From assembly GCF_900187945.1 (NCBI RefSeq), contig NZ_FYEH01000003.1, forward strand, positions 1 through 64,000: a stretch of DNA of 64,000 nucleotides. The letters run 5' to 3'. The position numbers and the translations under genes were made by a program. Below are positions 46,874 to 58,364 of the stretch, piece after piece. This stretch comes from Arboricoccus pini. GTDB lineage: Bacteria; Pseudomonadota; Alphaproteobacteria; Geminicoccales; Geminicoccaceae. The notes beneath the pieces are model-generated. The model was not told the DNA's origin and searched no databases. It saw nothing but the letters and a program-made list of their open reading frames with translations. Within the stretch, counting starts at the first letter, position 1, and the number at the start of each line of letters is the position of its first letter.

Positions 46874-47638
46874 GTGGGCGACAAGGGCAGAGCCTCGCGC
46901 CAGGCTGGCGGGGTCGTCGCATGTGTGGACTGCCCCTTGCGCCATCAGGCGGCGTTCCGCCAATTCGCGCCCGAGGAACTGGCGTTTGTTACGCATTTCA
47001 AGGCGGGCGAACTCCAGATCACCGCCGGCACAGACATTCTCCTGGCCGAGCACAACAGCGCCCATCTCTTCACCCTGCTGCGCGGTTGGGCATACCGCTA
47101 CAGCCTGCTGCCCGACGGTCGCCGCCAGATCCTCAATTTTCTCCTCCCCGGGGATTTCATCGGCCTGCAGGCCGGCCTGTTCGACGCCATGCAGCACTCG
47201 GTCGCGGCATTGACGGACGTCACTCTTTGCGTCTTTCAAAGGAGCGAACTCTGGTCGCTCTATCGTGAGCAGCCGAGCCTCGGCTACGATCTCACCTGGC
47301 TTGCCGCCAATGAGGAGGCGCTGGTCGACGCCAACCTCGTCGCCGTGGGCCAGCGCACCGCCTTGGCACGGATCGCCTACCTCATCGTGCAGTTCCATGC
47401 GCGGCTGGAAGGTGTGGGCATGTCGCAGCATGGCCGCTTTGCTTTTCCCTTGACGCAACAGCATGTGGCGGACGCGCTTGGCCTTTCGCTGGTCCACACC
47501 AACAAGACGCTGCGCCGCCTAGTCAAGCTGGGGGCCGTCAAGGTTGGCGGCGGCATGCTGGCCATAGCCAGGCTCGATCAGCTCCGCGCGATCGCCGGCC
47601 TGGAGGAGGCCAAACCGCGTTCGCGCCCCATTCTCTAG
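46874..47638 (+). CDS. Crp/Fnr-family regulator
   Basis: A 254-residue regulator starting with GTG 46874 (GAGG five bases upstream). The N-terminus has CVDCPLRHQAAF, a Cys pair in the place where FNR-type proteins hold part of their [4Fe-4S] ligands. The cyclic-nucleotide-binding-fold domain has FKAGELQITAG, then LLRGWAYRYSLLPDGRRQIL and LPGDFIGLQAGLF. The C-terminal winged helix has LTQQHVADALGLSLVHTNKT. It is FNR-like, of the type responding to oxygen or redox in alphaproteobacteria. Sensing is inferred, because a complete ligand set is not clear. Confidence 0.85.
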   Translation: MGDKGRASRQAGGVVACVDCPLRHQAAFRQFAPEELAFVTHFKAGELQITAGTDILLAEHNSAHLFTLLRGWAYRYSLLPDGRRQILNFLLPGDFIGLQAGLFDAMQHSVAALTDVTLCVFQRSELWSLYREQPSLGYDLTWLAANEEALVDANLVAVGQRTALARIAYLIVQFHARLEGVGMSQHGRFAFPLTQQHVADALGLSLVHTNKTLRRLVKLGAVKVGGGMLAIARLDQLRAIAGLEEAKPRSRPIL

Positions 47639-48410: not shown

Positions 48411-48449
48411 GGGTTGGCCGCCCGCCTGGACCGGCCATGGGAGAAGACA

Positions 48450-49331
48450 ATGCGCCATTGGCTCTTCTGGGCCGCCATGGCCCTGACGCTCGGCACCGGC
48501 GCGGCCCGGGCGGAAGGCATCGTCGTGCTCGAGAGCGACCTTGGCGACGAGGTCGAGGTCGCCGCCTTGAAGGGCCTTATCTTCGGAGTCGATCGCGGGC
48601 TCAACGTCGTTGATCTCAGCCACGATGTCCCGTCGCAGGATATCTGGATCGGCGCCTACCAACTAAGCCAAGTCGTGCCCTCCTGGCCGGCGGGCACCGT
48701 TTTCGTCGGTATCGTCGATGCTGATGCCAACCGCCCGGCCTTGGTGGCGCGCCTCAAGACCGGCCAGATCGTGGTTGGCCCCGACAATGGCCTCCTAACC
48801 CTCCTGGCTGACCAGCCAGGCCTGGCGGATGTCAGGCAGCTACAGCCCGACCTCGTCCAGAAGCCTCCCTTCGAGAGCCCGAGGAAATTCGCCGCCCGAG
48901 ATCGCTTCGCCATGGCGGGAGCCCTGCTGGCCGCCAACAAGCTAAGTTTCGATCAGGCCGGTCCGCCACTGGGCGAGCCCGTCATGATCCCCTATACGCA
49001 TGCTACCTTCGTGGACGGCGAGGTGGTCGGCACCATCCCCGACATCGACCCCGACCAGGGCGATGCCAAGACCAACATCGGCAGCGACCTTCTTGCCAAG
49101 CTGTCTCTGCGGGAGGGCGAGCGCGTCCACGCACGGATCGACCAGGACAAGCACACAATCTGGGAAGGCAATCTCGTCCTGGCGCGTGCCCCTGGCGATG
49201 TGCCCGAGGGAGACTCCTTCGTTTATGTGGACGAGCACGACCGAGTGGCGCTGGGTGTAAACATGGGGAGCTTCGCCGACCAGAACGGCATCGGCGCCGG
49301 TCCGGACTGGACCTTGAGCCTGCGCAAATAG
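48450..49331 (+). CDS. Exported SAM-hydrolase-family protein (DUF62)
   Basis: A 293-residue protein of the SAM hydroxide adenosyltransferase/halogenase family. Conserved segments are LESDLGDEVEVAALKG (the family's Asp), VVDLSHDVPSQDIWIGAYQL, GTVFVGIVDADANRP, QIVVGPDNGLLTLLAD and PYTHATFVDGEVVGTIPDID. An N-terminal signal (LFWAAMALTLGTGAARA) implies periplasmic export, although cytosolic SAM is the usual substrate. GGGAGA seven bases before ATG 48450 and the signal peptide decide this start over an in-frame ATG at 48414. It lies 40 bases after the GNAT gene. Confidence 0.8.
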   Translation: MRHWLFWAAMALTLGTGAARAEGIVVLESDLGDEVEVAALKGLIFGVDRGLNVVDLSHDVPSQDIWIGAYQLSQVVPSWPAGTVFVGIVDADANRPALVARLKTGQIVVGPDNGLLTLLADQPGLADVRQLQPDLVQKPPFESPRKFAARDRFAMAGALLAANKLSFDQAGPPLGEPVMIPYTHATFVDGEVVGTIPDIDPDQGDAKTNIGSDLLAKLSLREGERVHARIDQDKHTIWEGNLVLARAPGDVPEGDSFVYVDEHDRVALGVNMGSFADQNGIGAGPDWTLSLRK

Positions 49332-49452
49332 TTGCTGCCTTCAGGCATACGGGTAGGCCCCTAACCCATGAGCCGCGAGAACGACTCCGGAGCGAGCATC
49401 CAGGCCGCGCATGATTCCGACCTCTAGCGGCAGCGAGCCTGGCTGGCACCGG

Positions 49453-50835
49453 ATGAGCGAAGGCGCGACGCCGCGATCTGCCCCTACGGGCGCACTTGCC
49501 TGGCGGCTCCTCGTAGTGCTGCCACTCCTCGCTGTCCTTTTCGGCTGCGCCAGTACCCGGCGGGCCCAGGAGGTGGCTCTGTGCCGGGAAGCGACGCTGG
49601 CCCTCCAGCCGAAGGACGCCAGTCTCGAGTTCGTCGCGGCAACTGACACCCTACCGGCCGTGCCGGAGAGCGTCGTTGTCAGCTATCGCGTCCCTGGCTT
49701 GCCGCCCGCCCATCCGGCACCGCTGCCCGACCGGCAAGGATCGCACGCCCCGTCACTTGGGAGCGACTGGACGATCTGTCGTTTCGAGGTCCGCTCGGCC
49801 CTGGCATCGCCTTTGCTCGTGGAGCTCACAACAAGCCGGGATGGCCTGATTGGCCAGGCCGTCCTATTCTATCTTCGCACCTACGCGCTGGGCCAGCCGA
49901 CCGGCCTGCCCTACAGCTTCGCGCCGCGCTCGCCCCTGCCGCTCATCGTTCAACAGACCGTGAATGGCATGCGCGAGGGAGCGCTCATTGCGCTGCTGGC
50001 GATGGGCCTGACCCTTATACTCGCCCATACAGGCCGGCTGCATCTGACCTTGGGCGATATCGGCACCGCTGCGGCCTTGACCACGCTGCTCCTGACGACC
50101 TTCCTGACCGGTGCCGGTGCCCTTCCCCTCTGGCTGACACTGATCTTGACCATCGCAGTTGGCGTCAGCAGCGGCGCGCTCTTGGCACTCACCGCCGGGA
50201 GCGGCGCCTTCGGCCGACTCTGGCGGACAGCCGGCATAACTCCCCTCATCGCCTCTGTCGGCATATCGGTGGCCCTTCGCGAAAGCGCGCTGCTGGTCTT
50301 GGGTAAAGGACCGGCTTGGCTGAGCGCCTTGCTGCCGCAGCCGCTGAGGGCGAGCCTGGCGGGCGGCATCACTCTGCCGAGTGCGGCATCCCTCAATCTT
50401 CTGGTCGCCATCCTGACCTGCCTGGCACTTGGCGGCCTGATGCGCTTCGCGCGCTTTGGCAGCGCCGTCCGGGCAATCGCCGACGATCTTTCCATCGCAG
50501 CCTTCGACGGCGTGCGAACCCAGCGCGTCAGCGCGCTGGTCTTCACACTCTGCGGTGCCTGTGCCGGCCTTGCCGGCGCCCTGACGCTGCTCAGCTATGG
50601 GACGATGGACAGCGAGGGTGGCCTCATCCTCAGCCTTAAGGCCATGGCCGCAGCCGTCCTGGGCGGCATTGGCAGCCTTTCAGGCGCGCTCCTGGTCGGC
50701 CTTTTGATCGGCGTCATGGCGAGCCTCTGGTCCGCCTATCTCGATCCCGCCTATCGCGACGTCGCCGTCCTTGCCGTCCTGGCCCTCCTCCTGGTCTTGC
50801 GGCCGCTGGGCGGCGCGCCGGGCGCGCCTCGCTGA
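49453..50835 (+). CDS. LivH-like ABC permease with an N-terminal exported domain
   Basis: A 460-residue protein. The C-terminal 290 residues form a LivH-type branched-chain permease: IVQQTVNGMREGALIALLAM, SAVRAIADDLSIAAFDGVRT and LKAMAAAVLGGIGSLSGALL. Before it, about 160 residues are not permease-like. A hydrophobic segment with LLAVLFGCAS (Cys32) resembles a lipobox, followed by a soluble domain (CREATLALQPKDASLEFVAA, ICRFEVRSALASPLLVEL). An in-frame ATG at 49411 would add 14 residues. No LivM, LivG, LivF or binding-protein partner is adjacent, so it might work with a distant set or be a divergent system. Confidence 0.75.
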   Translation: MSEGATPRSAPTGALAWRLLVVLPLLAVLFGCASTRRAQEVALCREATLALQPKDASLEFVAATDTLPAVPESVVVSYRVPGLPPAHPAPLPDRQGSHAPSLGSDWTICRFEVRSALASPLLVELTTSRDGLIGQAVLFYLRTYALGQPTGLPYSFAPRSPLPLIVQQTVNGMREGALIALLAMGLTLILAHTGRLHLTLGDIGTAAALTTLLLTTFLTGAGALPLWLTLILTIAVGVSSGALLALTAGSGAFGRLWRTAGITPLIASVGISVALRESALLVLGKGPAWLSALLPQPLRASLAGGITLPSAASLNLLVAILTCLALGGLMRFARFGSAVRAIADDLSIAAFDGVRTQRVSALVFTLCGACAGLAGALTLLSYGTMDSEGGLILSLKAMAAAVLGGIGSLSGALLVGLLIGVMASLWSAYLDPAYRDVAVLAVLALLLVLRPLGGAPGAPR

Positions 50836-51455: not shown

Positions 51456-54305
51456 ATGGAATCTTCGATCTACGCCTTCGTCAAACGCTATAGCTGGCGT
51501 CAACAGCTCATCATTCTTGGCATGAGCGCTGTCCTCCTGCCCTTGAACTACGTGACGCTGGAACTGCCAAAGACAATCGTCAACCGGGCCCTGGGTGAGA
51601 ACGCCACACCTCATTACATGGGGTATAATTTCGATCGCCTGAATCTCCTTTGGCTGCTCTGCGGCCTCTTCCTGGCGGCGGTCGTCGTCAGCGGCGGTTT
51701 GAAATACATCGTCAACGTTTATGCCGGCATCGTCTCCGAACGGATGCTGCGCCGACTGCGCTACCAGCTCTACGAGCACATGCTGCGCTTTCCCCTGGCC
51801 CAGTTCCGCCGGACCAGCCAGGGCGAGATCGTGCAGATGATCAATGCCGAGACGGAACCGCTCGGCGGCTTCGTCGCCGAGGCGGTCTCGACGCCCGGGC
51901 TGCAAGGCGGCACGCTGCTCACGACGCTGGTCTTTATCTTCGTGCAGAATCCGATCCTGGGCATGGCCGCGATAGCCCTCTACCCCTTGCAGATCTACTT
52001 GATCCCCAAGCTGCAGCGGCAGGTCAACCAGTTGGGCAAGCTCAGGGTGCAGCAGGTCCGCCGCAATGCTGAGCGGATCAGCGAGACCGTCCAGGGCGCG
52101 CGCGACATCCACGCCAACGACGGCACCCGCTACGAGCGCGCCCGCATGGCGCAGCAACTGGGCGAGGTCTTCTGGATCCGCTTCGACATCTACAAGAAGA
52201 AGTTCCTGATCAAGTTCCTGAATAACTTCATGGCACAGTTCGGGCCCTTCCTCTTCTATTCCGTTGGCGGCTATCTGGTGCTCCAGGGCAGCATCACGCT
52301 GGGCGCCCTGGTTGCCATCGTCTCGGCGCACAAGGACATTTCCGCCCCCTGGAAGGAGCTCCTGGCGTTCTACCAGGGTGCCTACGACGTAAAGATCAAA
52401 TACGAGCAGGTCGTCACTCAGTTCATGCCCCCCGATCTCAGGCGCGCATCCCGCCTGGACGGCGACGCGAACGAGCGGCTCAAGATTGAGACGAACCTCA
52501 AGGTCAGCAAGCTCTCGCTCCAGGACGAGAACGGCGACGTGCTCTTGGAGAACATCGATCTCGAGGTCGAGCTGCCGACGCGACTGGCCGTGATCGGACC
52601 GGCCGGCAGCGGCAAGGAGGATCTGATCCTCACGCTGGCCGGCCTGCACGTGCCAACCACCGGCAAGGTGACGATCGGCGGACGTGATCTGGAAGAGCTG
52701 CCAGAAGCAGTGCTAGGACGCGCCATCGGCTTCATCGGCAGCCAGCCCTACATCTTCGCCGGCACAATCTATCGTAACCTCGTCTACGGCTTGATGCACG
52801 AGCCCGTGGCACCTCGCCCGAACGTGGACGAGGAAGCTTATAAGCGCGACTTGAGCGAATCCAGGCTCTCGGGCAACACGACGCTCGATGTCGAGGCGGA
52901 TTGGCTGGGCTTTGACGAACTGGGCCTAACCAAGCCCGCCCAGCGGCGCGCCGAGGTCATGCGCGCCTTGGATCTCGCCCTCTTGAGCGACGATGTTTAT
53001 CGCCTGGGCCTGCGCGGCCGGGTCGGGAAGGCACTCAGCCCCGAATCGGTGGAGCGTATCCTCGAAGCGCGCCGCCTGGTCGAGGAGCGGCTCAACCAGG
53101 ATCCGAAGCTGCGAAGGTTGATCGAACGCTTCGATCAGGATCGCTACAACGACAACGCAACGCTGGCCGAAAACCTCCTCTTTGGCACGCTACGCGGCGA
53201 CGATTTCGATGCCGACCATCTGACCCAGTATCCCTACGTGCTGGAGACACTGGCACGTACCGGTCTGGATAAGGAGTTGATGAGCGTCGGCCTCAAGATC
53301 GCCGAGACGATGGTCGAGCTTTTCGCCGACCTGCCGCCCGATCACGATTACTACCGCCAGTTCAGCTTCATCGCCGCCGACGACCTGCCCTATTACCGCG
53401 CCTTGGTCAGCCGAGCCCAGCCCGGGCGTCTCGACAAGCTTCGCCGGGCCGACCAGGAGCGGCTCTTGATGCTGCCCTTCAAGCTCGTCGAGACCCGCCA
53501 CCGGCTTGGTCTCCTGACCGAGGACCTCAAGGCCAAGGTCGTGGCAGCCCGCCACGATTTCCGCGAGCATCTACCCGAACGCCTGATCGACCGAGTCGAC
53601 TTCTTCGATCCCGACCGCCTCAACGAGGCCTCAAGCGTCCAGGACAATATCATCTTCGGCCGGATCGCTCTCGGCCAGGCGGGCGCCCAGCAGCGGATCG
53701 GCCAGCTCATCGCCGACATCATCGACGAATTAGAGCTCAAACCCTTCATCATCGAGATCGGACTGGAGGCACAGGTCGGGGTAAGTGGCAGTCGGCTGCC
53801 GGTGGCCCAGCGCCAGAAGCTGGCGATCGCCCGGGCGATCCTGAAGCGGCCCGAGATGCTGATCGTAGCCGACGCCACGGGTCCGCTCGATATTGGCGAG
53901 CAGCCCCAGGTGCGCGACAATATCCTCAAGGAGTTCGAGGGCCGGACGGTTGTCTGGGCACTCCACCAGCATGAATGGGCCCGCGACTTCGAGCACGTGG
54001 CCGTCATGGACCATGGCCGGTTGCGCGCCTTTGGCGGCTATGACGAGGTGATGGCCAAGATCGAGGGGCCGTCCGCCGCGCCTACCGGCGAGGCGGCTAA
54101 CGACCGGGCGGACGAACTCGGGAATGCCAACCAGTCCGACGCCGCCCCGGTGGCCGAGGCCGCTGACCGCGCTAGCCACGCGGCCGAGGAGGGCGAGCCC
54201 GGCGGCAGTACCCAGTCGGGAGAAAAGACTAGCGGCACGGCCCGCGCTGCCGATAGCAAGGAGCAGAGACGCCGCGAGGGCGTGCCTGCCTCGCCCGCCG
54301 AATGA
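51456..54305 (+). CDS. Divergent ABC exporter with an altered nucleotide-binding domain
   Basis: A protein of 949 residues from ATG 51456; an in-frame ATG at 51432 would add eight. Residues about 10-320 form a six-helix ABC exporter membrane domain (LPLNYVTLELPKTIVNRAL, FRRTSQGEIVQMINAETEPL, AQFGPFLFYSVGGYLVLQGS). The ATPase domain is altered: Walker A is GPAGSGKE (Glu for Ser/Thr), the signature is replaced by SGSRLPVAQRQKLAIARAIL, and Walker B ends VADAT (Ala for Glu, about residue 807). Between the Q-loop (IGSQPYIFAGTIY) and the signature lie some 350 residues instead of about 60, with three N-x-x-x-G motifs (RNLVYG, ENLLFG, DNIIFG). Next genes encode cyclic-nucleotide proteins. Confidence 0.85.
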   Translation: MESSIYAFVKRYSWRQQLIILGMSAVLLPLNYVTLELPKTIVNRALGENATPHYMGYNFDRLNLLWLLCGLFLAAVVVSGGLKYIVNVYAGIVSERMLRRLRYQLYEHMLRFPLAQFRRTSQGEIVQMINAETEPLGGFVAEAVSTPGLQGGTLLTTLVFIFVQNPILGMAAIALYPLQIYLIPKLQRQVNQLGKLRVQQVRRNAERISETVQGARDIHANDGTRYERARMAQQLGEVFWIRFDIYKKKFLIKFLNNFMAQFGPFLFYSVGGYLVLQGSITLGALVAIVSAHKDISAPWKELLAFYQGAYDVKIKYEQVVTQFMPPDLRRASRLDGDANERLKIETNLKVSKLSLQDENGDVLLENIDLEVELPTRLAVIGPAGSGKEDLILTLAGLHVPTTGKVTIGGRDLEELPEAVLGRAIGFIGSQPYIFAGTIYRNLVYGLMHEPVAPRPNVDEEAYKRDLSESRLSGNTTLDVEADWLGFDELGLTKPAQRRAEVMRALDLALLSDDVYRLGLRGRVGKALSPESVERILEARRLVEERLNQDPKLRRLIERFDQDRYNDNATLAENLLFGTLRGDDFDADHLTQYPYVLETLARTGLDKELMSVGLKIAETMVELFADLPPDHDYYRQFSFIAADDLPYYRALVSRAQPGRLDKLRRADQERLLMLPFKLVETRHRLGLLTEDLKAKVVAARHDFREHLPERLIDRVDFFDPDRLNEASSVQDNIIFGRIALGQAGAQQRIGQLIADIIDELELKPFIIEIGLEAQVGVSGSRLPVAQRQKLAIARAILKRPEMLIVADATGPLDIGEQPQVRDNILKEFEGRTVVWALHQHEWARDFEHVAVMDHGRLRAFGGYDEVMAKIEGPSAAPTGEAANDRADELGNANQSDAAPVAEAADRASHAAEEGEPGGSTQSGEKTSGTARAADSKEQRRREGVPASPAE

Positions 54306-54336
54306 CGCCACCCATCGTCCATCCGAGGAGCCGCCG

Positions 54337-54801
54337 ATGAGCCTGCAGCGTGATGTCGAGGTCCTGCGCGGCGTCCCTCTCTTTGCCAAGATCGAGCCCG
54401 CCAAGCTCAAACTGCTGGCATTCACCAGCGAGCATATCGAGTTCCTGGACGGCGAGGACATCTGCAAGGAGGGCGAACTGGGCGATGCCGCCTACATCCT
54501 CCTGGACGGTAAGGCGCTGGTCCAGGTGCTGACGGAGCAAGGCCGGGTCACGGTGGCGACGGTCAAGAAGAACGACATCGTGGGCGAGATTGCCATTCTT
54601 TGCGACGTTCCCCGCACCGCCACGGTGACGGCGGACGGCCGGGTCATGGCGCTACGCATCTCCAAGGACGGATTTTTCCACCTAGTTCAGCAATTCCCCC
54701 AGGTCGCGGTCGAAGTCATGCACGAGTTGGCGGCCCGCTTGCACCAGACGACCCAGCAGCTCATCCAAAGCGCGGCCGGCAAGGCCGCCAGTCGGTCATG
54801 A
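54337..54801 (+). CDS. Cyclic-nucleotide-binding protein
   Basis: A 154-residue single-domain cNMP-binding protein with no DNA-binding or enzymatic domain. The binding cassette is complete: ELGDAAYILLDGKALVQVL and the phosphate-binding cassette DIVGEIAILCDVPRTATVTA, in which Glu and Arg contact the cyclic nucleotide. It starts 31 bases after the ABC gene with GAGGAG upstream, and overlaps the cyclase gene by ATGA. The natural reading is a cAMP or cGMP receptor that regulates the adjacent ABC protein. This is inferred from position only. Confidence 0.9.
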   Translation: MSLQRDVEVLRGVPLFAKIEPAKLKLLAFTSEHIEFLDGEDICKEGELGDAAYILLDGKALVQVLTEQGRVTVATVKKNDIVGEIAILCDVPRTATVTADGRVMALRISKDGFFHLVQQFPQVAVEVMHELAARLHQTTQQLIQSAAGKAASRS

Positions 54802-56018
54802 TGACACCTCAGACTTCCTTACCGACGGGAATCTGGCCGACCCGTTCCAATCCTATCCTCGACTGGCTGATGCTGGAGAGTCGCGGCGAGCGGTTCCTCG
54901 ACGTCATCTTCGCCGAACTCTGCCAGCGCCTGGTCGGGCTCGACATCCCGGTGGCTCGGGCGACCCTGCACGTGCGCACCCTGCATCCACAATATAGCGG
55001 TGCCAGCATGATCTGGCGCTCCGGCATGAACCAGGTCGAGATGCGGACCTTCGAGCACGCTGAACTCGAGGGGGCAGTCTACAATGCCAGCCCGGTCAAG
55101 GCGATCTACGAGGGTGCCGAAGGCTTTCGTCAGCGGCTGGATCGCCCCCTGCCCGAGGGTGCGCCGAACTATCCGATCTTCGACGATCTGCGCCAGCAGA
55201 ACCTGAGCGACTATGTCGTCTGGCCGCTCGACTTCGTGGGCGGCCAGCGCCACGTGATGAGCCTTGCGACCGACCGCCCGGGCGGCTTTCACGGCGACGA
55301 ATTGATGCTGATCGCCGATCTGATCCCGGCCATCGCCCTGGTGGCCGACATCCGGATCAAGAATCGAATCACTCGCACGCTGCTCGACACTTATGTGGGC
55401 GGCTACGCCTCGGAGGAAATCCTCAAAGGCGTCATTCGCCGCGGCAGCGGCATGACGGTGCGCGCGGTCATCACGGTCTGCGATCTGCGCGGCTTTACCG
55501 CCCTCTCCGAGCTCTGGCCGCGCGACGACGTGATCGCCATGTTGAACGATTATTTTGATGCCATGTGCGAGCCCGTCGAGCGGAATGGCGGCGAGATCCT
55601 CAAGTTCATCGGCGACGGGCTCTTGGCGATCTTTCCGATGCGCGATCCCGATGCCTGCGACGCCGCCCTGCGAGCAGCGATCGGCGCGAGGCGCAACATG
55701 GCGGCCCTCAACGCCAAGCGCCAAGAGCGCGGGCTGGCCCGGCTGGGCTACGGGCTGGCCGTCCATGTGGGCGACGTCATGTATGGCAATATCGGCTCGG
55801 CCAAGCGCCTGGACTTCACGGTCATCGGCCCGGCCGTCAACATCGCCTCGCGCCTCGAAGGCCTGAGCAAGACGGTGCATCGCGAGATCCTCTTCTCCGG
55901 TGCCTTCGTCAATACCTGTCCCTGCGGCGGCCTCGGCCTCGACTATGTGGGTCGCTATCCCCTTCGCGGCGTCGATGCCCCCATGGATGTCTGGGCGCTT
56001 CCCGAAACCAGCAAATGA
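54798..56018 (+). CDS. Class III adenylate/guanylate cyclase
   Basis: A 406-residue protein. An N-terminal domain of about 185 residues (LMLESRGERFLDVIFAELCQ, then VWPLDFVGGQRHVMSLATDR) looks GAF-like. A linker leads to a class III cyclase catalytic domain. Catalytic residues are present: metal-binding Asp (about 228) in VCDLRGFTALSEL, Lys and Asp in GGEILKFIGDG, substrate-selecting Asp in KRLDFTVIG and the transition-state Asn/Arg in VNIASRLEG. The domain therefore appears active, probably an adenylate cyclase. It is coupled both upstream (ATGA) and downstream (ATGA) to the neighbouring genes. Confidence 0.9.
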   Translation: MMTPQTSLPTGIWPTRSNPILDWLMLESRGERFLDVIFAELCQRLVGLDIPVARATLHVRTLHPQYSGASMIWRSGMNQVEMRTFEHAELEGAVYNASPVKAIYEGAEGFRQRLDRPLPEGAPNYPIFDDLRQQNLSDYVVWPLDFVGGQRHVMSLATDRPGGFHGDELMLIADLIPAIALVADIRIKNRITRTLLDTYVGGYASEEILKGVIRRGSGMTVRAVITVCDLRGFTALSELWPRDDVIAMLNDYFDAMCEPVERNGGEILKFIGDGLLAIFPMRDPDACDAALRAAIGARRNMAALNAKRQERGLARLGYGLAVHVGDVMYGNIGSAKRLDFTVIGPAVNIASRLEGLSKTVHREILFSGAFVNTCPCGGLGLDYVGRYPLRGVDAPMDVWALPETSK

Positions 56019-56770
56019 GTGCTTTGTTCTCCACTCTGGCCGCCGCCATGGGTTACGATCTCGTGCCCCGGCGCAAGCAGCGGGACCGCTGGCGACAGCT
56101 CGAAGCCGGGCTCGAGCGCTTCGCCGTCGATGCCGTGATCGATATCGGCGCCAATCAGGGCCAGTTCGCGCACGCCTTGCGTCAGGGCGGCTGGGAAGGC
56201 CCGATCCTCTCGATCGAACCGCTGGCCGAACTGCACCCTATCCTCAGACGGACAATGCGGGGCGACAAAGCCTGGCAGGTCGCCCCGCCCATGGCGATCG
56301 GCGACAAGGACGGATCGGCGGTGATCGAGGTCTCGGCCGAAAGCGACATGAGCTCGCTTCGTGCCCGCAGCCCGCTCCTCGAGCGGTTATCGCCCTCCTC
56401 CGCCGTTAAGGAGCGCCGCGACGTGCCGCTCCGCCGGCTCGACCATCTGGACGAAATCGACCCGCGCTGGCAACGACTCTTCGTCAAGATCGACGTGCAG
56501 GGTGCCGAGGCGGCCGTCCTCGAAGGGCTGGAGGCGCTTTGGCCACGGATCGTCGGGCTGGAACTGGAGATGGCGCTTCTTCCGCTCTATGAAGGTGAGA
56601 CGGACTGGCGGGTCATGACCGACAGGCTGGCGGCCCTGGGCTTCGAGCTTTATCTGCTCGTCCCGGGCTATTTCGAAAAGAAGCTCGCAAGGCAGGTACA
56701 GGTGGACGGTATTTTCTTCAGACAGGCCGCGGACCCCTCAACCGGTTCGACCGGAAGGTCTCTGCCATGA
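56015..56770 (+). CDS. FkbM-family methyltransferase
   Basis: A 251-residue FkbM-type SAM-dependent methyltransferase. The SAM-binding loop is VIDIGANQGQFAHAL, followed by GPILSIEPLAELHPIL and the FkbM-type RLFVKIDVQGAEAAVLEGLE (which includes the conserved Asp and Gly). Family members methylate sugars, polyketides or other small molecules. It overlaps the cyclase gene by ATGA and the psd gene by ATGA, so it is coupled into the same transcript. Its substrate is unknown. Confidence 0.87.
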   Translation: MSALFSTLAAAMGYDLVPRRKQRDRWRQLEAGLERFAVDAVIDIGANQGQFAHALRQGGWEGPILSIEPLAELHPILRRTMRGDKAWQVAPPMAIGDKDGSAVIEVSAESDMSSLRARSPLLERLSPSSAVKERRDVPLRRLDHLDEIDPRWQRLFVKIDVQGAEAAVLEGLEALWPRIVGLELEMALLPLYEGETDWRVMTDRLAALGFELYLLVPGYFEKKLARQVQVDGIFFRQAADPSTGSTGRSLP

Positions 56771-57471
56771 GTGCTGATCGCTCGGCGCTATCGACGGTGA
56801 TGACGCCCATCCACAAGGCAGGGTGGCCCTTCATCGCCGGCGCCTTCGTGCTGGCCATCCTCCTGGGCTTCCTCTGGAAGCCGCTCTTTTGGCTGGGCCT
56901 GATCGCCACCGCCTGGTGCATCTATTTCTTCCGCGATCCTCGTCGCGTGACCCCCGACGATCCAATGCTGGTGACGAGCCCAGCCGACGGGCTGGTCCAG
57001 ATGATACGCCTGCGCCGCCCGCCGCCGGAGATGGGGCTTGGCGATGAGAAACTGCTTTGCGTAAGCATTTTTCTCAACATTTTCGACGTGCACGTGAACC
57101 GCACGCCCGTGCCGGGCCGGCTTTTGACCCGCGCCTACCACCCGGGCAAGTTTCTGAACGCCGCCGCCGACAAGGCCTCGGAACTCAATGAGCGCCAGTC
57201 CTGGCTGATCGAGGCAGCCGACGGACGCAAGGTGGGCCTCGTCCAGATCGCCGGGTTCGTGGCGCGGCGTATCGTCAGCTTCGTCGAAGCTGGCGCCGTC
57301 CTCCTGCCGGGTGATCGAGTCGGGCTTATCCGCTTCGGCAGCCGCTGCGACGTCTATCTGCCGGACGGCGTCGAGCCGCTCGTCATCGAGGGACAAAAGG
57401 CGGTGGCGGGCGAGACGATCATCGCCCGGCTCGACGGCCAGCAGACCTGCTATCAAGGTCGGGAGACCTGA
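56767..57471 (+). CDS. psd: Phosphatidylserine decarboxylase
   Basis: A 234-residue proenzyme, the short form seen in alphaproteobacteria. It makes phosphatidylethanolamine from phosphatidylserine. Conserved segments are VTPDDPMLVTSPADGLVQMI, VSIFLNIFDVHVNRTPVPGR and the autocleavage site RFGSRCDVYLPDG, where Ser192 after Gly191 becomes the pyruvoyl group. The N-terminus has a hydrophobic segment (FIAGAFVLAILLGFLWKPL) for membrane association. It overlaps the FkbM gene by ATGA and pssA by one base, the usual psd-pssA order. Confidence 0.93.
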   Translation: MSADRSALSTVMTPIHKAGWPFIAGAFVLAILLGFLWKPLFWLGLIATAWCIYFFRDPRRVTPDDPMLVTSPADGLVQMIRLRRPPPEMGLGDEKLLCVSIFLNIFDVHVNRTPVPGRLLTRAYHPGKFLNAAADKASELNERQSWLIEAADGRKVGLVQIAGFVARRIVSFVEAGAVLLPGDRVGLIRFGSRCDVYLPDGVEPLVIEGQKAVAGETIIARLDGQQTCYQGRET

Positions 57472-58364
57472 TGTTGCGACGTAGTGCCAGGTTAAGGGAG
57501 CGGCGGCGATCGCTGCGTGCCCGGCCGCTTTTGCATCTGATCCCCAATATGATCACGATCCTTGGGCTCTGCCTTGGCTTGACGGCACTACGTTATGGCC
57601 TCGACGGGCGCTTCCAGATCGCCGTCGCTCTCATCCTGTTCTCGGCCGTGGTCGATGGCCTGGACGGCCGCTCGGCCCGCCTCCTCAAGATCACGAGCCG
57701 GCTGGGCGCGGAGCTCGACAGCCTCGTCGATTTCGTCGTCTTCGGCGTCGTGCCGGCGGTCTTGGTGTATCTCTGGTCGCTCGAGGACATGCGCAATGTC
57801 GGCTGGGGCGTGTCCATGCTATTTGCCACCTGCATGGCGCTGCGCCTGGCCCGCTTCAACAGCGAACTCGAGATGCCGGACCGGCCACGCTGGACGCTCT
57901 ATTTCTTCACCGGCGTCCCGGCCCCGGCAGCGGCCATGCTCTTGCTTACCCCGATGATGGCCTCGTTCACCACGGGCGTCGGCTGGCCGCGCCATCCCGC
58001 GATCAACGCGATCCTGGCCATCTTCGTCGCCTTCATGATGGTGAGCCGGATCCCGACCTTTTCCTTAAAGCGCGTCCGCGTGAAGCCCGAATGGGTTTTG
58101 CCCGTCCTGATGCTGGGCGGCACGGCCCTGGTATTCCTCGTCACCGAGCCCTGGCTGGCCATGACCGTTTTTGGCGTCGGCTACATCCTCTCGATCCCAG
58201 TCGGCTGGTTCTTCGCCAACCGCATGCGCCGTCGCGAAGAGATGCCCTCCCACGACGAGGGAGGCATCGCTTCGGCCGCCGCAGCAATCGACAGGCAGGA
58301 GGATCGACCGCCTCTGTCCGATCGCATCATTGCCTGGACCGGACGAGGCTCACGACGATCCTGA
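57471..58364 (+). CDS. pssA: CDP-diacylglycerol-serine O-phosphatidyltransferase
   Basis: A 297-residue phosphatidylserine synthase of the CDP-alcohol phosphatidyltransferase family, with about eight membrane helices. The catalytic signature D-G-x2-A-R-x8-G-x3-D-x3-D is complete, from Asp65 to Asp87 (DGRSARLLKITSRLGAELDS, then LVD). The ATG overlaps the psd stop by one base (TGATG). It supplies phosphatidylserine for Psd to make phosphatidylethanolamine. Its place at the end of a six-gene run implies it is co-regulated with the ABC and cyclase genes, which is unusual. Confidence 0.93.
   Translation: MLRRSARLRERRRSLRARPLLHLIPNMITILGLCLGLTALRYGLDGRFQIAVALILFSAVVDGLDGRSARLLKITSRLGAELDSLVDFVVFGVVPAVLVYLWSLEDMRNVGWGVSMLFATCMALRLARFNSELEMPDRPRWTLYFFTGVPAPAAAMLLLTPMMASFTTGVGWPRHPAINAILAIFVAFMMVSRIPTFSLKRVRVKPEWVLPVLMLGGTALVFLVTEPWLAMTVFGVGYILSIPVGWFFANRMRRREEMPSHDEGGIASAAAAIDRQEDRPPLSDRIIAWTGRGSRRS

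Follow-up and report, generated by a model that had tools for sequence, protein, structure and literature searches.

What does a protein with an exporter fold do when its ATPase residues are largely gone and a cyclic-nucleotide receptor is encoded directly behind it? The question is raised by positions 51456-58364 of the window, the whole 64,000-nucleotide stretch of Arboricoccus pini DNA that was analysed, in which the gene of an ATP-binding cassette (ABC) protein heads a run of six genes. An earlier reading made from the letters alone (the sequence-only reading) had described the run as one coupled unit of an altered exporter, a receptor, a maker of its cyclic nucleotide, an FkbM enzyme and two lipid enzymes. 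The conserved core is smaller and wider spread than was held there, and consists of two proteins, the ABC protein and the receptor. We put the probability at about one half that these two act together as a translocator or gate that is controlled by a cyclic nucleotide, is deficient in hydrolysis and serves a glycan or glycolipid of the envelope; the main rivals of such a gated translocator are a slow real ATPase and a sensor without transport.

The ABC protein and its decayed ATP site

The ABC gene and the parts of its product are arranged as follows.

51456-54305, + strand: putative pseudo-ATPase with ABC-exporter fold, 949 amino acids (aa), transmembrane domain (TMD) at about aa 1-325 (51456-52430); Pfam ABC_membrane 1e-24, ABC_tran in two pieces
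52488-52790, + strand: first part of the nucleotide-binding domain (NBD), aa 345-445, with the decayed Walker A GPAGSGKED (52596-52622) and the Q-loop region GSQP
52791-53741, + strand: insert of 317 aa (aa 446-762) with extra helical-subdomain-like units, motifs NDNATLAENLLFG (53148-53186) and NEASSVQDNIIFG (53622-53660)
53742-54065, + strand: second part of the NBD, aa 763-870, with signature LPVAQ (53796-53810), Walker B region MLIVADATGPLD (53856-53891) and H region WALHQHEW

The protein has the architecture of an ABC exporter, the TMD being followed by the NBD (Pfam 1e-24 and 4.1e-14). Its whole-protein model (mean predicted local distance difference test score, pLDDT, 80.9; predicted template-modelling score 0.77) shows the type IV exporter fold in a structure search, with a best Z of 29.2 over 450 residues at a root-mean-square deviation (rmsd) of 5.4. 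The NBD of ComA aligns to residues 340-874 (233 residues, rmsd 2.1, Z 28.8), and because this match spans the insert, the NBD is placed on both sides of it. Between the end of the first piece, past the Q-loop, and the start of the second, ahead of the signature, stand 317 residues. Pfam gave no C39 peptidase match in the window protein, and the best NCBIfam model is MsbA_lipidA at 172.7 bits, far under its cut-off of 602.

The relatives were compared in 91 loci, composed of the window, L012, L040-L042, L044-L049, L053-L069, five plasmid loci and 58 of 60 further loci; 19 lie in the window's bacterial family and 72 outside it. L043 and L026, both truncated at contig ends, the weak matches L050-L052 from outside the family and the fragments L147 and L169 were left out before counting; near-duplicates such as L040/L042, L044/L049, L047/L048 and L123/L179 were retained. 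Twelve candidate exporter frames (L027-L038) from the window's and related genomes served as controls, of which three under 450 aa were left out and nine used. By the family profile, no second exporter membrane part was found in the 91 loci (with flanks of about 10 kb at most, shorter at contig ends); the single match besides the ABC proteins is the broken-off start of one member.

In the window protein, other residues stand in place of Ser/Thr in Walker A, of Asp in Walker B and of the catalytic Glu (GPAGSGKED; LPVAQ; MLIVADATGPLD). Six positions were scored across the family, namely Walker A Lys7 and Ser/Thr8, Q, Walker B Asp, catalytic Glu and His, Ser/Thr8 being the residue that holds Mg. 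Zero, one, two, three and four canonical residues are present in 20, 23, 27, 17 and 4 of the 91 members, respectively, none has five or six, and the complete set of Walker A, Q, signature, Walker B and H motifs is absent throughout. The altered ATPase domain noticed in the window is thus a property of the family, with at most four of six canonical residues in any member. In the same alignment, eight of the nine control frames carry all six, and the ninth (L031) is a wrong frame that encodes no ABC protein. Only a single member has both Lys and Ser/Thr in its Walker A.

Conservation is distributed unevenly along the protein. Mean pairwise identity in the ABC family is 0.52 for the TMD and 0.355 for the NBD, against 0.20 and 0.47 in eight controls; these are paralogues, and absolute levels are therefore not comparable, but the order of the two domains is reversed. 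Judged from these alignments, selection in the ABC family appears shifted, with the membrane part under strong constraint and the ATP site decaying.

The remnants of the site have to be weighed against this decay. The Walker A glycine frame is largely kept (G1 77/91, G4 60/91, G6 78/91), Lys or Arg occupies K7 in 76/91, Gln is found in the signature in 73/91 and Asp in the D-loop in 81/91, and one member is nearly complete. Since these glycines, and with them the Gln of the signature and the Asp of the D-loop, survive in most members, the shape of the nucleotide site may persist. These features would suit a glycan or glycolipid exporter that is still ATP-powered and receptor-regulated, with a slow, unusual ATPase in which other residues have replaced the decayed ones. 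We consider such an exporter rather unlikely, as Ser/Thr8 is kept in only 8/91 members, Walker B Asp and His in 21/91 each, and Walker B Asp together with Glu in 3/91, and as the NBD is less conserved than the TMD, opposite to the controls.

The insert between Q-loop and signature carries the motifs NxNATxAENLLFG and xxxSxQDNILFG in two stretches, and its residues N573, N731 and G735 are found in 91/91 members. Its halves (446-585 and 586-740) match each other in hhalign at 98.5% (E 4e-15), and the second and third units of the region at 97.8% (E 8e-13), the third continuing into the signature like an ordinary NBD. Matches of the first unit, whose start is the true Q-loop, are weaker (45 and 57%; E 2e-4 and 1e-4), and four control comparisons with membrane segments reach at most 0.2%. 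It is well supported by these profile comparisons that the second and third units are extra copies of the helical subdomain, while for the first unit the evidence is only suggestive. Folded alone, the insert has a mean pLDDT of 82. Foldseek with this model gave no match at E 0.001 or better, and the best of the weak VIA rows are ABCB1 476-547 (Z 3.6, rmsd 3.1, 69 residues) and the TM287 NBD 413-490 (Z 3.0). Both segments, which we take to be the region from Q-loop to signature, would fit the repeat idea and are too weak alone. Only weak, short DNA repeats occur inside the insert, and the duplication, if real, is therefore old.

Receptor and cyclase

The second conserved protein is encoded directly downstream, and in the window it is followed by a cyclase gene.

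54337-54801, + strand: stand-alone cyclic-nucleotide receptor, 154 aa, phosphate-binding motif VGEIAILCDVPRTATV (54580-54627); Pfam cNMP_binding 1.8e-18
54798-56018, + strand: class III nucleotide cyclase, 406 aa, catalytic domain aa 226-391; Pfam Guanylate_cyc 7.8e-10

The receptor belongs with the ABC protein, as had been supposed. Its gene lies directly downstream on the same strand in 69/91 loci, it is fused to the C-terminus of the ABC protein in 18/91, and only 4/91 show another arrangement or none. Among the 69 adjacent pairs, the distance from the ABC stop codon to the aligned receptor domain has a median of 29 nt and is at most 100 nt in 65. In a quick tree, the 18 fusions form one supported clade and require one change. 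Fused proteins include those of Ruegeria sp. THAF33 and Azospirillum lipoferum 4B, and separate genes occur in Rhizobium etli CFN 42 and a Mesorhizobium; WP_004679746.1 is a Rhizobium etli homologue of the receptor. Judged from gene order and fusion, the coupling of the two proteins is near-obligate. Across 88 receptor domains, the pocket motif VGEIAILCDVPRTATV retains Arg93 in 88/88 and Glu84 in 83/88, with Asp at position 84 in the other 5/88. The receptor thus has the phosphate-binding cassette with Glu and Arg of the cyclic nucleotide monophosphate (cNMP)-binding domains, and a cyclic nucleotide is predicted as its ligand from sequence.

Variants of the receptor module and separate cNMP domains were also seen. 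Two near-identical ABC-receptor fusions, L044 (5598-9155) and L049 (10001-13558), bear a C-terminal GGDEF domain (9.8e-9 in L049; L044 by similarity), whose motif looks degenerate by eye. In the window, positions 47021-47269 encode a further cNMP-binding domain in a separate open reading frame (ORF) of about 266 aa, and at G000:C8:260710-261090 (L002) a cNMP domain that is 32% identical to the receptor lies in a 921-aa ORF.

The cyclase probably makes a cyclic nucleotide, in line with the sequence-only reading. D229, K269, D273, T341 and R352 are invariant in 15/15 aligned loci of the window's family, and N348 is present in at least 90%, so that the two metal Asp, the substrate Lys, the Asn and the Arg of class III are all in place. 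The roles of D229, D273, K269, N348 and R352 are assumed from class III rules, by which the combination of Lys and Thr presumably fits an adenylate cyclase. In 18/19 loci of the window's family, as opposed to 4/72 elsewhere, a cyclase gene follows on the same strand at a distance of at most 3.5 kb, and of the claimed adjacency of the first three genes the ABC-receptor part holds (87/91) whereas the cyclase part is largely confined to that family. The receptor and cyclase genes overlap by 4 nt in 13 of 18 loci with both genes in the window's family (the window counted); this overlap, together with the ABC-receptor order in 87/91 loci, places the association beyond chance. The window genome contains three class III cyclases and four cNMP domains in total, and since two of these cyclases and three of these domains lie outside the run, the signalling circuit does not have to be a closed one. 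In the window's family, a source of cyclic AMP (cAMP) seems to have been added to a receptor-transporter pair that may be signalled from elsewhere in other lineages.

A cyclase adjoining a cNMP-binding effector, in a sporadic distribution, is also the hallmark of the phage-defence system Pycsar. Matches of the cyclase to PADLOC PycC models (best 2.1e-24) and of the receptor to PycTIR (2.1e-16) would suit a Pycsar-like pair with a membrane effector. Generic shared domains can account for these matches, the cyclase is absent from most loci, and the ABC protein is widespread, mostly single copy and set in a recurrent neighbourhood, that is, not sporadic; such a defence pair is extremely unlikely.

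Neighbourhood and distribution

The ABC protein is mostly present as a single copy, and its insert profile was found in 131/385 alphaproteobacterial genomes and 87/277 genera (E 1e-15); flanks were retrieved for part of these 131. A protein search of plasmids returned 262 records (144 Rhizobium, 80 Sinorhizobium), and plasmid-borne members occur in Rhizobium, Sinorhizobium, Azospirillum and Ruegeria. A search of the phylum gave 31 positives among 398, all of them, among the matches listed, in the same class, the out-of-class share of the 398 not being given. One relative (L045) is in a metagenome-assembled genome labelled Arenicellales, for which misbinning and transfer are both possible. Among the 24 genomes of the window's bacterial family, G008, G011 and G021 showed no member, and G006 and G022 only a cut one. 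The ABC gene of S. meliloti strain ml59 lies in two frames and is unannotated (L122 9962-12708), possibly through a sequencing error; the other S. meliloti records listed match the protein in one piece.

Clustering of the neighbours in the 91 loci gave a glycosyltransferase group in 46, a histidine phosphatase in 22, an unassigned group in 22 and a Methyltransf_17 group behind the receptor in 17. The unassigned group resembles polysaccharide deacetylases by eye, and the one member scanned had no Pfam match. The Pfam names are those of one scanned locus. The groups derive from simple ORF picking, and one of 34 loci mixes importer ATPases with antisense frames. The Methyltransf_17-type gene is found immediately behind the receptor (for example L161 10811-11311), the slot taken by the cyclase in the window's family.

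The glycosyltransferase cluster had been overlooked by the sequence-only reading; in the window genome it is located on another contig:

G000:C23:342353-350271 (L188 9354-17274): window-genome glycosyltransferase cluster, seven genes

Its genes encode, in order, a GT28-like protein, a second glycosyltransferase (L188 10568-11776), a Glycos_transf_1 protein, a histidine phosphatase, a further GT28-like protein, an unassigned 250-aa protein and an oligopeptide-type importer ATPase. The same order is found beside the ABC gene in L161 and similar loci of other families. One enzyme of this kind was searched and found in 126/385 genomes, 124 of which also have the insert (exceptions 7 and 2, phi 0.95), whereas the lifestyle control phaC occurs in 251/385, 118 in common with the insert (phi 0.375). 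Among the partners tested, the glycosyltransferase cluster is the most conserved across the class. In genome G304 (family f71, locus L176), no matching glycosyltransferase was found and the locus has no receptor; its ABC protein is a highly diverged member on a long branch, perhaps of a lineage that is losing the system.

These neighbours bear on the idea of a membrane sensor or scaffold without transport, in which the pseudo-ABC protein would relay the state of the envelope to the receptor, the cyclase or the glycosyltransferases. SUR plays a comparable regulatory role for its potassium channel. A membrane part that stays conserved after the motor is lost would agree with such a sensor, and SUR2 and KATP entries appear among the fold matches, though level with ordinary exporters. 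The recurrent link to glycan synthesis suits transport at least equally, and no channel or kinase was seen among the annotated recurrent neighbour groups, several groups being without annotation. We regard a sensor of this kind as unlikely.

The remaining genes of the run are as follows.

56015-56770, + strand: FkbM-type methyltransferase, 251 aa; Pfam 2.2e-16
56767-57471, + strand: phosphatidylserine decarboxylase (psd), 234 aa; Pfam and NCBIfam profiles
57471-58364, + strand: phosphatidylserine synthase (pssA), 297 aa; Pfam and NCBIfam profiles

The layout of the run was confirmed by ORF check, Pfam and NCBIfam. The six ORFs at 51456-58364 are on the + strand, each in frame from ATG to TGA, with a gap of 31 nt after the ABC gene and then overlaps of 4, 4, 4 and 1 nt, and their Pfam and NCBIfam names agree (ABC_membrane with split ABC_tran, cNMP_binding, Guanylate_cyc, FkbM, PS_Dcarbxylase and CDP-OH_P_transf). 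The last two, described before as the enzymes of phosphatidylethanolamine synthesis, pass curated cut-offs (NF003679 286.5 vs 252; TIGR00473 108.9 vs 107); the best-scoring model in their scan, NF003677, reaches 311.1, slightly below its own cut-off of 315. Between 51200 and 58600, a scan for sigma-70-like promoters found none, which says little for this organism, and three terminator-like sites were counted against a shuffle mean of 4.0, that is, no excess. Upstream in the window, a SAM hydroxide adenosyltransferase gene (SAM_HAT, 48414-49331) precedes that of a branched-chain permease (49411-50835) whose N-terminus carries a long extension.

Close FkbM relatives are present in 13/19 loci of the window's family and 0/72 elsewhere, and close psd and pssA relatives, at most 6 kb downstream, in 8/19 and 0/72. 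In S. meliloti, a different FkbM-type gene stands directly behind the receptor. As close relatives of the FkbM and psd-pssA genes are found only in the window's family, we treat these genes as neighbours and not as the core of the system; they fit later, lineage-specific neighbours compatible with an envelope role. Among the six genes, wide co-occurrence in other alphaproteobacteria holds for the two-protein core only. A closed cAMP circuit that ties phosphatidylethanolamine synthesis to export through the six-gene operon, as had been suggested, would agree with the coupling in the window and with the same gene order in seven further loci of that family (L041, L053, L054, L055, L056, L059 and L060). 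The placing with lipid synthesis holds for one bacterial family only, and the closed circuit is very unlikely, given 0/72 loci with psd and pssA outside that family and a genome with three cyclases and four cNMP domains.

A proposed gated translocator and the known systems

The mechanism that we infer comprises a homodimer, a docking site, a ligand, gating, a substrate and a direction. Two copies of the ABC protein would pair in an exporter fold; their NBDs would be devoid of ATPase chemistry and their extra helical-subdomain copies would provide a regulatory platform. The receptor would bind a cyclic nucleotide, most likely cAMP, supplied in the window's family by the cyclase of the next gene. 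In ordinary exporters, the helical region couples the NBD to the membrane part. Here, the charged receptor may dock on the enlarged helical region and switch the membrane part between states, and the membrane part would pass or flip the product of the co-occurring glycosyltransferase cluster, a glycan or glycolipid of the envelope. More tentatively, ABC proteins without ATP hydrolysis may act throughout the class as cyclic-nucleotide-gated translocators (scramblase-like or gated flippases) of a lipid-linked glycan, with the triplicated helical subdomain as control element and a detachable cAMP receptor in place of ATP.

Several findings weigh against the gated translocator. Besides the signature Gln and D-loop Asp counted above, Walker A Lys is present in 41/91 members and L171 has K, S, D and E, so the sequences leave room for weak ATP binding or hydrolysis in the ABC family. 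No receptor was found in the retrieved flanks of L154, L159 and L176, the receptor of L045 lies 6.4 kb upstream of the ABC gene, and a cyclase is near the ABC gene in only 22/91 loci. At least two glycosyltransferases stand in the locus in only 39/72 cases outside the window's family and 2/19 inside. The genome-wide co-occurrence of insert and glycosyltransferase ignores phylogeny and has a single control (phaC), and among the 11 mixed families visible, eight are concordant and three discordant (f71, f43 and f26), two of the discordant f26 genomes being 86 and 63% complete. Moreover, a pocket motif is no proof of its ligand, because the cNMP domain of HetC binds ppGpp, not cAMP (PMC10986499).

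The joint occurrence of the decayed ABC protein, the receptor and the glycosyltransferases suggests a signal-controlled, unstudied step in the building of the cell envelope. ABC exporters are defined by ATP-driven transport, and a family present in about one third of the sampled alphaproteobacteria would offer a natural test of the fold without the motor. The ABC-receptor pair would also provide a non-transcriptional target of cyclic nucleotides in alphaproteobacteria, and the glycosyltransferase link hints at a glycan pathway of the envelope that has no assignment so far and is open to testing in strains amenable to genetics.

Among known systems, the type IV ABC exporters (MsbA, Sav1866, TM287/288) share the fold of TMD and NBD, whereas the ABC family has lost catalytic residues, carries a 317-aa insert and has an NBD less conserved than the TMD. 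Regulatory ABC proteins such as SUR resemble it in the possible use of the ABC fold as a regulator, but SUR is the partner of a channel and both binds nucleotide and hydrolyses it, and no channel was seen near the ABC family. TAP and CFTR are exporters with one degenerate site. One degenerate nucleotide site is likewise described for heterodimeric exporters such as TM287/288 (PMC7756269). Such heterodimers keep one competent site through the partner half, whereas the 91 loci revealed no partner half, a distant one being possible.

S. meliloti MsbA2, an ABC exporter beside glycosyltransferases on pSymB with an operon near 938 kb and a symbiosis phenotype, was considered as an already studied member and rejected, as the receptor match lies near 844 kb of pSymB, about 93 kb away from the operon (PMC3687685). 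SMb20813 is called an msbA homologue in another paper (PMC10945364), and, the pSymB record being without annotation, its identity with the S. meliloti family member is only a guess from spacing. SMb20811 (PMC6180224), SMb20805 (PMC5539429) and PMC12239276 contributed no usable information. We recognised no description of an ABC-receptor pair in searches of the open-access literature, and an earlier mention elsewhere is possible. Each part is of a known kind; those searches turned up no description of how the parts are combined, of an ATP site decaying across the family while the membrane part stays constrained, or of the repeated region.

The nearest precedent found is HetC of Nostoc, a peptidase-containing ABC exporter whose cNMP domain is needed for function (PMC10986499). 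HetC has an N-terminal cNMP domain, a C39 peptidase and an essential ATPase residue. The two systems are alike in joining a cNMP-binding domain to an ABC exporter; they differ in that the receptor described here is C-terminal or separate, the peptidase match is lacking and the ATPase is decayed. By analogy, HetC indicates that cNMP-domain control of an ABC exporter exists, and that the ligand of such a domain can be ppGpp.

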